Positions 25,592 through 30,221 are shown, numbered from the stretch's first letter. The stretch: DNA of 52,375 bases from Oceanispirochaeta sp. (GCF_027859075.1 NZ_JAQIBL010000005.1:1-52375), one strand, 5' to 3'. The notes: a model not told the origin generated them from the letters alone. A program made the numbers and translations.

Positions 25592-26008
25592 CTATTCTTT
25601 ATCTATATAATTATCAAGAATCGTCTGAATTGTCTGAGACCTCAGCTGTTCCCTGATCAATTCTTCCGTATCCGACCAGAACGCGGAAATAGCGCAGTCG
25701 GCAGAACGGCCGCATGTTGCGTCTCCTGATGTACAGGGTGCCAGAATAACACCTTCTTCCACTGCTTCCAGAACATCCAGAACTGATATCTCATTTAATT
25801 CCCTGGAGATCCAGAATCCCCCGGACGCCCCTCTGACAGATTCGGTGATTCCTGCTTTTTTCAGCTTGGTAAAAATCTGCTCCAGAAATATAGGAGAGAG
25901 CTCCTCACTATTGGAAATTGATTTTATGGAAATAGGTTTGTTTTCTTCATTTAGGGCCATGTTCATTATTGCTCTTATTGCATACCGGCCTTTTGTTGTT
26001 ATTCGCAT
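25592..26008 (-). CDS. Rrf2-family transcription regulator with Fe-S cysteines
   Basis: Winged-helix regulator of the Rrf2/IscR family (138 aa). The N-terminus MRITTKGRYAIRAIMNMAL and the wing-helix ESVRGASGGFWISR are typical. Three cysteines C92-x6-C99-x5-C105 match the cluster ligands of IscR (92, 98, 104), so an Fe-S cluster is likely and the protein may sense iron, redox state or NO. It is divergent from the UroD/thioredoxin fusion gene and probably controls it. An AGTACC direct repeat in the shared promoter region is a candidate site. It is not next to isc or suf genes. Confidence 0.9.
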   Translation of the reverse strand: MRITTKGRYAIRAIMNMALNEENKPISIKSISNSEELSPIFLEQIFTKLKKAGITESVRGASGGFWISRELNEISVLDVLEAVEEGVILAPCTSGDATCGRSADCAISAFWSDTEELIREQLRSQTIQTILDNYIDKE

Positions 26009-26080
26009 AGACTCATAATATCGCTATTACTATGGTCGGGCAAGTGATCTGATGCACTCATAAGGCTACTTTGGATAAAA

Positions 26081-26098
26081 AGTACCCGAAATAGTACC
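26081..26098. promoter_or_regulatory. AGTACC direct repeat in the Rrf2/UroD-like promoter region
   Basis: The 178-bp gap between the divergent Rrf2 and UroD-like genes holds AGTACC at 26081-26086 and 26093-26098, a 12-bp period inside an A-rich stretch. Each copy contains the palindrome GTAC. It is a candidate binding site for the adjacent Rrf2 regulator. The remaining gap is AT-rich and no clear -35/-10 pair stands out. Confidence 0.35.
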
Positions 26099-26186
26099 AA
26101 AATTAACATGAGATTTATATATGAGAGCCTTTCTCAGGTATTAACATAAGTTAAGACTACAAATTAACCCCAAGGATAGAGAAATA

Positions 26187-27536
26187 ATGAATGGAAAAGA
26201 ATTAATAATAAAAGCATTTCAAGGTAAAGCGACAGAACGGGCTCCCTGGGTTCCTTATACGGGAGTTCAGATTGCTAATTTGAAAGGCTATGATGCCCAG
26301 GAAGTTCTGCAGGATGGAGAAAAGCTTCTGGAATGTCTGCTTGAATCAAACAAGCAGTATACTCCCGATGGACAACCTGTCGTATTCGACCTCCAGATTG
26401 AAGCCGAGATTCTGGGTTGTGATCTGCTATGGGCCAAGGACTCTCCTCCTACTGTCAGGAATCACCCCCTGGCGGATACAAAGGAGATTCCCGGTAAGAT
26501 CCCGTCAAAGTCGGAAGGGAGAATTCCCATGGTTCTGGATGTTATGAACAAGATGAAAGCGGCAGTCGGTGATACGACAGCTCTATATGGACTTGTCTGC
26601 GGTCCTTTCACACTGGCCTCTCACCTGAGAAGCACCAACATCTTTATGGATATGTACGATGATGAAGAGTATGTTAAAAAATTGATGGCTTATGCAACGG
26701 ATGTCTCCATTGCCGTCGCGGATTACTATATTGAGGCGGGAATGGATATCATCGGATCAGTCGATCCTCTGGTTTCACAGATCTCTCCCGATATGTTTAC
26801 ACAGTTTATGGCTACTGATTATAAAAGATTTTTTGATCATGTCCGATCCAAAGGTGTTTACAGCTCTTTCTTTGTCTGCGGTGATGCCACAAAGAACCTG
26901 GAAGCCATGGCACTGACTGGACCGGACTGTCTCTCCATTGATGAAAACATCGACATTGTGGAAGCAAAAAAAGTAACAGAGGCTCACAATATTCTAATTT
27001 CCGGCAACATGCAGCTTACGGTTGTTATGCTCCTGGGGAATCAAAAAGACTGTCAGAAAGCAGCCATTGATCTGATGGATAAGATGGGCACAAAAGGCTT
27101 CATACTGGCGCCAGGCTGTGATATTCCCTTCGGTGTTCCTGTTGAAAACATTGTAGGAGTCGGTCAGGCTGTGCAGAATATCGAAGCCACCAGAACATTC
27201 CTTTCAAGCTATGTGAAAGAAGTCGTGGATATCGATGTTGAAATGCCTGATTATGAGAACCTGGATTACGTTCTTATCGAGGTTTTGACCATTGATTCTG
27301 CCACCTGCGCAGCCTGTGGATATATGAAAGCCGCTGCGGATGACATGATTGGGATTTTCGGTGACAAGAAAGTGAAGGTCATTGAACGAAAAATTCTTGA
27401 ACCTGAAAATATTGCCCGCCTGGGTATCCTGGGAGTCGCCAACCTTCCATCTATGGCTGTGAATGGAAAGGTCACCCATGTTTCCCTGATCCCCAACCGT
27501 GCCGAGTTGGAAAAAGAGATCGCATCTCTGGTCTGA
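26187..27536 (+). CDS. UroD/MtaA-like methyltransferase fused to a CXXC thioredoxin-like domain
   Basis: Residues 1 to about 350 resemble the uroporphyrinogen decarboxylase superfamily, closest in pattern to corrinoid:thiol methyltransferases MtaA/MtbA/CmuA (GPFTLASHL, YYIEAGMDIIGSVDPL). MtaA-type enzymes bind zinc by HxC-x~77-C; here the two Cys are present (C231, C311) but the His position is Phe (F229 in FFVCGD), so zinc binding may differ. Residues about 360-449 are an extra thioredoxin-like domain with C374-AA-C377 (TCAACGYM) and NLPSMAVNGKV. It is first in a run with two G3E GTPases (51 bp gap). A role in methyl or metal/thiol chemistry is inferred, not shown. Confidence 0.82.
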   Translation: MNGKELIIKAFQGKATERAPWVPYTGVQIANLKGYDAQEVLQDGEKLLECLLESNKQYTPDGQPVVFDLQIEAEILGCDLLWAKDSPPTVRNHPLADTKEIPGKIPSKSEGRIPMVLDVMNKMKAAVGDTTALYGLVCGPFTLASHLRSTNIFMDMYDDEEYVKKLMAYATDVSIAVADYYIEAGMDIIGSVDPLVSQISPDMFTQFMATDYKRFFDHVRSKGVYSSFFVCGDATKNLEAMALTGPDCLSIDENIDIVEAKKVTEAHNILISGNMQLTVVMLLGNQKDCQKAAIDLMDKMGTKGFILAPGCDIPFGVPVENIVGVGQAVQNIEATRTFLSSYVKEVVDIDVEMPDYENLDYVLIEVLTIDSATCAACGYMKAAADDMIGIFGDKKVKVIERKILEPENIARLGILGVANLPSMAVNGKVTHVSLIPNRAELEKEIASLV

Positions 27537-27587
27537 ATTGACTTGATTAATGTTCATCGGGGGCCCGATTCTGAAGGAGACTTTTTT

Positions 27588-28511
27588 ATGAGTACTGGAA
27601 TAGATATTGTCCTGCTGGCAGGATTCCTCGGAGCGGGCAAAACAACGGTCCTCAATGAACTGATCAGACTTTTCCATGACCGCAAGCTGGGGATGCTTGT
27701 AAATGATTTCGGAGAGGTCCCTGTGGATGGGTCTTTATTGAAGAATGAAAATCCTGAACTTCTGGAAGAGGGACATAAAATATATGAGATCGGGAATGGC
27801 TCCATTTTCTGTTCCTGTCTCAAGGCTCCATTCCTCTATGGCCTGAAGTATTTTGAAAAGGAAAAACCCGATCTTCTATTTATCGAAGCTTCGGGTCTGT
27901 CCGATCCCTCCAGCATGAATAAGATTCTGAAAGAACATCATCTGGACGATCAATTTTCTATCAAACATGTAGTGACCCTGATCGATCCCATTCGTTATAA
28001 GGCTCTTATCACAGTGCTGGAAGTTATTGGACGGCAGATCTCTTCTGCGGATCAGATCCTTATCAACAAGGTGGACCTGATCTCTCAAAAGGATCTGGAA
28101 GAATTAATACATGATCTGAAACTGCGTTCATCCGCACCCTTTCAGACAGGCTCCTTCGGACAGTTTGATTATTCTTTTATTGATGATGAGACCACCCAGG
28201 TCATGGACGAGGACAGGGAGAGCTGCAATACCCCCGAGTCTCGACCAGGCAGCCTGTTCCTGGAAGGAACTCTGGAGAGTGAGCAGGTGTTGAAAGATTT
28301 TATGGGCCGGGTTGAAAGCGGGATATACAGGCTGAAAGGGTTTCTGGAACTGGAGGGCAAGACCTTTTATGTTTCTGATAATACCAAAGGATACTCCATG
28401 ACCGAGACTGCTAAACCGGGGATAAAGCCGGGACTCACTGTCCTCTGCCCCCTGGGAAATGAAAAAAATATCGCCCGCCTCTGGAGAGAGATTCAGGGTG
28501 CTTCCCTATGA
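27588..28511 (+). CDS. G3E-family GTPase (CobW/HypB/COG0523-like), first copy
   Basis: P-loop GTPase of the G3E group, which includes metal chaperones (CobW, HypB, UreG, ZNG1). Walker A is GFLGAGKTT at 12-20, the G3-like segment is FIEASGLSD, and INKVD is the guanine-recognition motif. The metal-binding CxCC of COG0523 proteins is reduced to C75-S-C77 (IFCSCLK). The start at 27588 has AAGGAG 8 bp upstream; an earlier in-frame ATG at 27543 does not. Its stop overlaps the next GTPase gene by 4 bp. Length 307 aa. It probably services the UroD-like enzyme upstream; this is inference from linkage. Confidence 0.87.
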   Translation: MSTGIDIVLLAGFLGAGKTTVLNELIRLFHDRKLGMLVNDFGEVPVDGSLLKNENPELLEEGHKIYEIGNGSIFCSCLKAPFLYGLKYFEKEKPDLLFIEASGLSDPSSMNKILKEHHLDDQFSIKHVVTLIDPIRYKALITVLEVIGRQISSADQILINKVDLISQKDLEELIHDLKLRSSAPFQTGSFGQFDYSFIDDETTQVMDEDRESCNTPESRPGSLFLEGTLESEQVLKDFMGRVESGIYRLKGFLELEGKTFYVSDNTKGYSMTETAKPGIKPGLTVLCPLGNEKNIARLWREIQGASL

Positions 28512-29581
28512 CGCAACTGATAATCCTGGGAGGATTTTTGGGCTCAGGAAAGACCACTTTTATGGTCAAAGCCGCCGAAATGCTGGAACGAAGAGGGTCT
28601 ACCGTCTCGGTGATCACCAATGATCAGGGAGATACTCTGGTAGACAGCCTCTATGCCGCAGTGGATGGAATAGACACCCGTGAAGTGTCGGGTGGATGCT
28701 TCTGCTGCCGTTTTCCCGATTTTCTGGAAACAGTGAAGGCTCTTATTGCAGACAAAACCCCTGACTTTATCATTGCAGAAGCAGTGGGCAGCTGCACCGA
28801 TCTGGCAGCCACTGTGATTAATCCACTCGTGGAATTCCATAAGGATACGGTGAAGGTTATTGCCTATCTGACTCTTGTGGATGGACTGCGGCTGCAAAAA
28901 GAATACCTGGATATGGATCTTTTTAAGCCCCTGGAACCGGGAGAAGTTCTGATCTCTCATCAGATAAGGGAATCCGAGGTTCTGGTCATGTCAAAAACAG
29001 ATCTTTTAGAGAAAGACCAGCTGGCTTCGGGTTTGTCTTTCTTAAAAAAACTGAACCCGAAGGCTCTTTATTTTCTATGTTCTTCCCACAGCGGGGATGG
29101 GCTTGATCTTTTATTAGACAGATGTCTGCAGGGGTTTCCCCTGGACTTTTCTCAGCGGGTGCCCCTTGATTATCAGGTTTATGCGGATGCAGAGGCTGCC
29201 TATGGATGGTATAACGGTTCCTGGAAGATGGAAAGTCAAATCGACCAGGACCCTATGGATCTCAGCTTTATCATCATGGAATCTTTCCGGAACCCCCTGC
29301 TGGGAGAAGTGGCCCATGCCAAGCTTTTTATCACCACCCCCGGGGGGGGGCTCAAGGTGAGTTTCGTATCGGGACATATACAGGCAGATGAAATCGGCCT
29401 GTTTGAGGGTAAGGTGGGGCGGATGAAGATCACCCTTAACATCCGTTCGGCCTGTGTTCCCGAGACCATTGAACAGCATGTTCTGGAACTACAAAAGAGC
29501 CTGAGGGATAGGGGATTGCAGATTATTGACTATGCATGCAATTCGCTGATCCCTTCTCCACCCAAACCTTATTATTCCTGA
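28508..29581 (+). CDS. G3E-family GTPase (CobW/COG0523-like), second copy
   Basis: A second, divergent G3E GTPase (357 aa) translationally coupled to the first by ATGA. Walker A is GGFLGSGKTT (8-17), and the complete COG0523 metal motif C64-F-C66-C67 (GGCFCCRF) is present. MSKTDLL serves as the NKxD-like base motif. Residues about 230-357 form a C-terminal domain containing a glycine-rich turn (TTPGGGLKVSF). Two different G3E proteins side by side suggest that they act as a pair or on two steps of cofactor or metal delivery. It is convergent with the small barrel gene at 29587. Confidence 0.87.
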   Translation: MTQLIILGGFLGSGKTTFMVKAAEMLERRGSTVSVITNDQGDTLVDSLYAAVDGIDTREVSGGCFCCRFPDFLETVKALIADKTPDFIIAEAVGSCTDLAATVINPLVEFHKDTVKVIAYLTLVDGLRLQKEYLDMDLFKPLEPGEVLISHQIRESEVLVMSKTDLLEKDQLASGLSFLKKLNPKALYFLCSSHSGDGLDLLLDRCLQGFPLDFSQRVPLDYQVYADAEAAYGWYNGSWKMESQIDQDPMDLSFIIMESFRNPLLGEVAHAKLFITTPGGGLKVSFVSGHIQADEIGLFEGKVGRMKITLNIRSACVPETIEQHVLELQKSLRDRGLQIIDYACNSLIPSPPKPYYS

Positions 29582-29586
29582 AGGGA

Positions 29587-30078
29587 TCAGAAAACGTAAC
29601 GGATTCCCAGAGAAGTCGACCAGTCCAGATCTACTCCTTTGAGGAAGGATATTCCCGGACCGGCTTCGATATACAGGTTCAGGGGAATCTCTTCAAAGGT
29701 ATACTCCCATCGGAGAAGTCCCAGGACAGACATATTAAATTCATTTCCCATATTCACATTCAGCTGTGGACCCAGAGACAGGGGAAAGGGCTGGTCTTTG
29801 ATCATGATATCCGCCAGTGTGAACATCAGGTTTCCACCCAGGGTAAAACCATTGTATAAGGTTCCTGCCAGGACATTGATTTCCAGGTAATTGGCCAGTC
29901 TATAGCCGAATACAAGACCTGATGGGTATCCCAGAGCGACTCCGGCTTTGGCTCTTCCTTCAAGACTTTCCGTATTCAGATTTATTTCTTTAATCTCTTT
30001 ATCTTCCACCTTTTTGTTCTGTCCAAAAATCGGAAGAACCAGACTTATCATCAAAAGTATCAACACTGTTTTTTTCAT
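29587..30078 (-). CDS. Small outer-membrane beta-barrel-like protein
   Basis: A 163-aa exported protein: signal peptide about 1-19 (MKKTVLILLMISLVLPIFG then QN). The mature part has alternating hydrophobic strands (AGVALGYPSGLVFGYRL, LEINVLAGTLYNGFTLGG, LSLGPQLNVNMG, LNLYIEAGPGISFL) and ends in Phe (LGIRYVF), all as in small outer-membrane barrels. The start at 30078 has GGAG 7-8 bp upstream and leaves a clean signal peptide; an in-frame upstream start at 30102 does not. Family not recognised. It is convergent with the second G3E gene and divergent from the ArsR gene. Confidence 0.75.
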   Translation of the reverse strand: MKKTVLILLMISLVLPIFGQNKKVEDKEIKEINLNTESLEGRAKAGVALGYPSGLVFGYRLANYLEINVLAGTLYNGFTLGGNLMFTLADIMIKDQPFPLSLGPQLNVNMGNEFNMSVLGLLRWEYTFEEIPLNLYIEAGPGISFLKGVDLDWSTSLGIRYVF

Positions 30079-30221
30079 AAAAAATTCTCCTCGGGACCTC
30101 AATCTGCATTGAAGACGGTATCCTTGTTAAGTATATCTGAAATAGAAAAAGTTTCCTCTTTAAAATCATAAAAATAACACCATCTGGGCATACTTCAAGC
30201 GGTTATGCTAAACTGGAGGGG

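Follow-up and report, generated by a model that had tools for sequence, protein, structure and literature searches.

Type 1 mlp gene clusters are defined by at least two Mlps encoded on the same strand as Ram and a corrinoid protein (Kountz & Balskus, PMC10418091), and a GTPase, CobW and a fused thioredoxin are all unmentioned in their description. The O-demethylase and chloromethane systems MtvB, OdmB and CdmBCA also include a UroD-fold enzyme, a corrinoid protein and an activating enzyme, and are paired with a folate methyltransferase; zinc is absent from the Cdm enzyme, and neither thioredoxin nor GTPase is mentioned for these systems (PMC13222342). A split methionine synthase with a RamA-like activase and DUF1638 has been described from Phaeobacter (PMC5764234), and subfamily 13 of the COG0523 GTPases sits beside corrinoid methyltransferases (Haas 2009, PMC2770081).

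The gene cassette analyzed here lies in a stretch of 52,375 nucleotides from Oceanispirochaeta sp. (GCF_027859075.1, NZ_JAQIBL010000005.1:1-52375), hereafter the window. It encodes a fusion of a UroD/MtaA-like protein with a thioredoxin-like domain, as well as two GTPases of the G3E (COG0523) family. The fusion resembles the methylcobamide:coenzyme M methyltransferases MtaA and MtbA in fold (24-25% identity) and in the two zinc cysteines, but differs in having F229 for the zinc His, a gained H146, invariant D68 and DEN (252-254), and the fused thioredoxin. With type 1 mlp clusters (PMC10418091) the fusion loci share a UroD/MtaA-like enzyme, a corrinoid protein (CoP), Ram/RACo, occurrence in anaerobes and the lack of an adjacent folate methyltransferase, the latter also setting them apart from MtvB, OdmB and CdmBCA. 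In contrast to type 1 mlp clusters, they mostly carry one fused UroD without the His-Cys-Cys triad, together with a G3E partner; with one UroD in most loci, and with CoP and RACo at a separate locus in this genus, they fall outside the type 1 mlp definition. CoP, RACo and DUF1638 are shared with the split methionine synthase system, to which one spirochaete lineage comes closer by adding a homocysteine methyltransferase after the first GTPase gene, whereas the fusion system is without the folate-binding part and each of the 18 fusion genomes checked has its own separate S-methyl_trans/MetH gene. The setting differs from that described for COG0523 subfamily 13, of which either G3E type may be a member, in that two separable G3E types are tied here to one fused enzyme. 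A search of the open literature, with subscription papers outside its scope, returned no description of the fusion, its G3E tie or its selenocysteine form, and the fusion module is apparently a widespread, undescribed system of vitamin B12-dependent methyl transfer.

Organization of the gene cassette

The fusion gene (26187-27536, plus strand; 449 aa) matches PF01208 with an E-value of 6.1e-61 (206.8 bits, cut-off 23.9) and heads an operon-like run on the plus strand. It is followed by the genes for a G3E GTPase of type A (G3E-A, 27588-28511 from ATG; PF02492, 1.4e-36), which has an F-C-S-C metal-type motif, and of type B (G3E-B, 28508-29581; PF02492, 1.7e-25), which has a G-C-F-C-C motif. A longer TTG-start frame of G3E-A opens at 27543. 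Both GTPases contain the cobW domain (PF02492) with the P-loop GFLGxGKT kept, and their genes share an ATGA stop/start overlap (28508-28511, plus strand) suggestive of translational coupling. Divergent to this run is the gene for an Rrf2-family regulator (25592-26008, minus strand; 138 aa; PF02082, 8.6e-36). Each gene assignment is backed by Pfam and NCBIfam. ORF calls and Pfam matches agree with the preliminary description of this DNA, which had listed the divergent Rrf2 gene, the fusion with C374/C377, two distinct G3E genes and the ATGA overlap; it had also placed the G3E pair at once after the fusion, where the order is correct but the immediacy is not, with 51 bp separating the fusion stop from the G3E-A start. 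A small putative secreted or outer-membrane protein with no Pfam match (29587-30102, minus strand) adjoins the cassette in several congeners.

The Rrf2 protein has cysteines at positions 92, 99 and 105. It belongs to the Rrf2 family and scores below the cut-off of the IscR equivalog TIGR02010 (123 versus 207.6 bits). Apart from one Chloroflexota locus, an Rrf2 gene stands beside the fusion only within the window's genus, and the regulator, initially presented as part of the system, is instead a lineage-specific addition to the cassette. The intergenic region contains a block, TACCAAAATT ... TTTATATA (26095-26121, no strand assigned), which is invariant in six congeners and represents a candidate Rrf2 operator or promoter.

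Domain structure and active site of the fusion protein

The AlphaFold model of the full-length fusion, built with 28 homologues, is confident in both domains (pLDDT 91.8, pTM 0.88). It comprises a UroD/MtaA-like TIM barrel (about residues 1-335; PF01208) and a thioredoxin-like domain (about residues 349-449) with the CAAC motif at 374-377. A Foldseek search with this model returned MtaA (4ay7) as the closest structure, with a TM-score of 0.89 by target length, and UROD structures were also matched. Modelled alone, the C-terminal domain had a pLDDT of 96.4, and its top PDB matches were thioredoxins (query TM-score about 0.6-0.7). The CxxC motif is kept as CAAC or CAPC, and LP (420-421) is invariant in the 28-row alignment. 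The added CXXC thioredoxin-like domain (C374/C377) proposed earlier is thus borne out by the predicted structure and the PDB matches. The URO-D domain and the fold place the fusion in the UroD/MtaA superfamily, but it scores below the cut-offs of TIGR01463 (mtaA_cmuA, 166.2 versus 235.4 bits) and NF040654 (MtaA, 144.3 versus 400 bits). An ordinary MtaA or HemE is ruled out by curated cut-offs together with the residues described below.

One clostridial branch (L168, L169, L170 and L186) has open frames of about 550-575 aa in which CAPC replaces CAAC and which end in what seems to be an additional, degenerate thioredoxin-like domain. A joined UroD-DUF2284 ORF at L079 was considered as a further domain fusion and rejected, as it looks like a deletion or an assembly joint.

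C231 and C311 of the fusion align with both zinc cysteines of MtaA, whereas the zinc-His position is occupied by Phe (F229) in all 107 fusion sequences. The His-x-Cys ... Cys zinc triad of the UroD-type S-methyltransferases (MtaA, CmuA, Mlp) is therefore broken in the fusion with only its cysteines retained; in CmuA, in an A. noterae relative and in a paralogue from the window's own genome, the aligned position retains His. F229, H146, C231 and D252-E253-N254 are invariant over the 107 sequences, as are C311, C374 and C377 wherever the residue is readable, and an invariant D68 further distinguishes the fusion from MtaA. In plant uroporphyrinogen decarboxylase the residue aligned with H146 is a Tyr, which corresponds to Tyr164 in the active site of the human protein. 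H146 probably takes the place of the lost zinc ligand. The plain MtaA-type zinc chemistry evoked by the preliminary description does not fit a protein in which the zinc His is invariably Phe.

Distribution of the fusion and its G3E partners

Full-length fusion orthologues occur in four phyla (Spirochaetota, Bacillota, Desulfovibrio relatives and Chloroflexota). Among the spirochaetes, 24 of 61 genomes have one (the query genome counted). The classes of two clostridial genomes gave 6 of 43 and, in the class of Eisenbergiella tayi, 40 of 391, the Desulfovibrio class 11 of 348, and the class of G065 (Anaerolineaceae) 16 of 396, a few in these last sets being partial. Fifty-one named loci come from Spirochaetota, Bacillota, Bilophila, Haloplasmataceae and Anaerolineaceae.

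G3E-A is located directly downstream of the fusion on the same strand at 56 of the 63 loci with enough sequence, and likewise at 25 of 30 further clostridial loci (some of which are counted in both sets) and 9 of 10 Desulfovibrio-class loci. In Chloroflexota, its place is taken by G3E-B, which neighbours the fusion at 11 of 14 loci. All G3E-B proteins form one supported group in the tree, spanning Spirochaetota, Bacillota and Chloroflexota, and the CxCC metal motif is present in 23 of 23 type B proteins, while all type A proteins show CxC only. The window carries both types, and the congeners G002 and G005 have G3E-A without G3E-B beside it. Based on the neighbourhood counts and the supported G3E-B group with CxCC, both window GTPases are genuine partners of the fusion, the window belonging to a lineage that keeps both. 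The preliminary description had regarded the cassette as accidental should homologues of the fusion usually lack the G3E genes; checked across distant lineages, the fusion was usually accompanied by type A or, in Chloroflexota, by type B, and these adjacency counts rule out an accident of gene order.

Other genes also recur at these loci. At L041, L044, L046, L053 and in other gut clostridia, the fusion/G3E-A pair is closely accompanied by a gene for a BioB/PylB-like radical SAM protein, which in some cases overlaps it. At L098 (2484-3374, minus strand) and L035 (6700-7590), a stand-alone homocysteine S-methyltransferase gene lies directly 3' of G3E-A and is followed by a gene for a 195-aa protein of no known family.

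Corrinoid partners of the fusion

The window's genome encodes exactly one RACo and one stand-alone CoP. Both lie near each other on contig C252, separated by a PocR/AraC regulator and accompanied by a cobalamin riboswitch, and RACo and CoP likewise share one contig in five congeners. Judged from gene content, the window cassette appears to be one half of a split corrinoid methyl-transfer module with the rest on contig C252. The preliminary statement that no corrinoid protein is adjacent is thus correct for the window and incorrect for the system. Nor can the cassette be called self-contained, as it was at first, with the CoP and RACo that it would require encoded at a second locus.

In other genomes, these genes are joined to the fusion. 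The RACo-PocR-CoP trio is located directly upstream of the fusion and G3E-A in G030, G033, G050 and L039, clostridial loci add DUF2284 and a radical SAM protein resembling BioB to RACo, PocR and CoP, and Desulfovibrio relatives have a single run of fusion-G3E-A-CoP-DUF1638-RACo. The CoP is of the MtgC/MtbC type. Among spirochaete genomes, 22 of 24 that encode the fusion have RACo, versus 7 of 37 that do not (Fisher p = 1.3e-8, uncorrected for relatedness; the association is partly phylogenetic), and in genomes at least 90% complete the numbers are 17 of 17 versus 5 of 25. This association with a CoP and a reductive activase places the fusion in a corrinoid module, and the conserved fusion-G3E link with a role in corrinoid methyl transfer, as originally suggested, gains support. 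In two spirochaete lineages, a CPA2-type Na+/H+ antiporter and a PTS EIIA-like protein are encoded upstream of RACo (L102:1796-3870, L039:3-1981).

Of the 44 fusion loci flanked by 4 kb or more in each direction, 18 have neither CoP nor RACo nearby, and no RACo was found nearby at Chloroflexota loci except L069. Fusion and G3E pairs of the former kind, and the three-cysteine Rrf2 adjoining the fusion in this genus, would be expected of a self-contained, Rrf2-regulated redox maturation unit without a corrinoid, in which the two G3E GTPases insert the metal of their client, the fusion. However, we consider this very unlikely given the RACo found in every fusion-bearing spirochaete genome of at least 90% completeness, the joining of CoP, RACo and a B12 riboswitch to the fusion in many lineages, and the lack of conservation of Rrf2.

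A cobalamin riboswitch is located directly 5' of CoP in six spirochaetes (G000, which is the window's genome, G002, G005, G033, G048 and G050; L094:4364-4539 on the minus strand, L095:8257-8384, L096:8287-8470, L100:8112-8287, L101:8252-8376 and L116:7921-8071). B12 riboswitches usually turn genes off when B12 is plentiful, and an element of this off type would be paradoxical for a B12-using system. A role in cobalamin processing would account for riboswitches 5' of CoP or of a CoP-fusion-G3E operon: the fusion, as a bacterial counterpart of CblC, would strip methyl or other upper ligands off cobalamin that is imported or inactive and pass them to a thiol from the thioredoxin domain, with the G3E protein acting as a MeaB-like B12 chaperone and CoP as the receiver. 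The fused thioredoxin, the near-constant G3E partner and the lack of a dedicated substrate methyltransferase nearby are consistent with such a role. It is nevertheless rather unlikely, because the recurrent neighbour families include no gene for B12 transport or synthesis, the PocR/AraC regulators and the MtgC/MtbC-type CoP point to substrate-induced methyltransferases, and scans of ten clostridial and nine Desulfovibrio/Chloroflexota loci detected no riboswitch.

Neither a substrate-specific nor a folate methyltransferase is a consistent neighbour of the fusion. A required MttB-type partner was rejected, as 13 of 18 fusion genomes, among them that of the window, lack PF06253. The homocysteine methyltransferase found after G3E-A in one spirochaete lineage, and the MetH-activation-like protein found in others, hint that the methyl group may reach methionine, in genomes that also carry the separate S-methyl_trans/MetH gene.

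A probable selenocysteine form of the fusion in two clostridia

In the clostridial genomes G061 and G085, the fusion gene has an in-frame TGA exactly at the position of C311 (L059:8931-8940, which equals L122, and L123). Between these genes there are 228 differences in 1359 bases, of which 199 fall in third positions, with 21 amino-acid changes in all, which indicates a reading frame under selection with the TGA kept. A hairpin follows about 24 bases 3' of the TGA, and one of its U-A pairs becomes C-G in the other genome, i.e. covaries. Compared with shuffled sequences, the G085 hairpin folds better than most (z = -2.1) and the short G061 stretch less clearly so (z = -1.0); four Cys-bearing relatives, when folded, showed nothing beyond their shuffles. 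Both genomes have a tRNA-Sec with the anticodon TCA, and SelA was found in G061. The conserved TGA at a Cys position, tRNA-Sec and the downstream hairpin coincide at L059/L122 and L123, and this applies to those loci and not to the window protein. These two clostridia therefore likely encode a selenocysteine-bearing form of the fusion, a probable new selenoprotein family member. The probable Sec at C311 in two genomes marks this residue as a key thiol or metal ligand, catalytic or metal-binding. A 2026 review of prokaryotic selenoproteins mentions neither uroporphyrinogen decarboxylase nor MtaA.

A sequencing error or pseudogene as the source of the L059 TGA was ruled out once the second genome showed the same codon. 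A second fusion copy in G087 (L129) has an in-frame TAG inside the conserved TLASHL motif and is probably a dead copy or an error, and the split ORF of L074, considered as a recoded codon, results instead from a frame break near residue 370.

Selenium use as the general role of the family was rejected, since SelA above cut-off is absent in 7 of 12 fusion genomes tested and no tRNA-Sec above cut-off was found in the window's genome, on whose selenium use the Sec form has no bearing. These absences mean that selenium salvage for selenoproteins cannot be general to the fusion, and they also count against its being merely an unusual Mlp that demethylates methylselenol or dimethylselenide. The common UroD/MtaA ancestry, the company of CoP and RACo, the methylation of selenide by ClMlp2 (PMC10418091) and the probable Sec form would suit such an Mlp, but most loci have a single UroD, not two or three, and the His-Cys-Cys triad is absent. 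We regard this explanation as improbable, if slightly less so than cobalamin processing.

Proposed role of the fusion module

The fusion is probably the methyltransferase of a corrinoid-dependent module with a soft-metal site, a built-in redox step and G3E maturation. This reading is based on the co-occurrence with RACo, the RACo and CoP pair on contig C252, the trio upstream of the fusion, the riboswitches and the match to the MtaA fold, as well as on the conservation of C231, C311, C374, C377 and H146, the TGA at C311 and the COG0523 precedent (PMC2770081). The lack of a consistently adjacent substrate-specific or folate methyltransferase, the broken His-Cys-Cys triad (F229), the loci without CoP and RACo, the partly phylogenetic nature of the RACo co-occurrence and the logic of the B12 riboswitch count against it. 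The family, fold, partner genes and residue conservation of the module were established computationally, whereas the class of substrate, the metal site, the direction in which methyl flows and the roles of the thioredoxin and G3E proteins are inferred.

In the proposed mechanism, CoP would carry the methyl group and RACo would reduce the CoP cobalt back to Co(I). The TIM barrel would transfer methyl to or from CoP, the other partner being a compound of the sulphur or selenium type (a thiol or selenol) held at a soft metal site formed by C231, C311 and probably H146. The thioredoxin domain may donate or accept electrons in a dithiol/disulphide step that reduces the substrate or resets the site, and the G3E GTPases may load metal (or corrinoid) into the fusion or CoP. 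The further proposal of a new corrinoid methyltransferase family, in which the zinc His has moved (F229/H146), the thioredoxin is built in, a G3E maturation partner is obligate and two clostridia use a Sec ligand, is a real possibility that falls somewhat short of probable.

The fusion family is common in anaerobes of the gut, sediment and fish intestine, and no assigned function was found for it; the probable selenocysteine form pinpoints an active-site residue of the family. To our knowledge, COG0523/G3E GTPases are ubiquitous and few have a known client. With two separable G3E families tied to one enzyme across four phyla, the question of the client becomes directly testable. If the proposal of a new family is correct, the module would combine a redox step of its own with a new chemistry of thiol/selenol methyl transfer, and would provide a COG0523 GTPase whose client is known from gene linkage.
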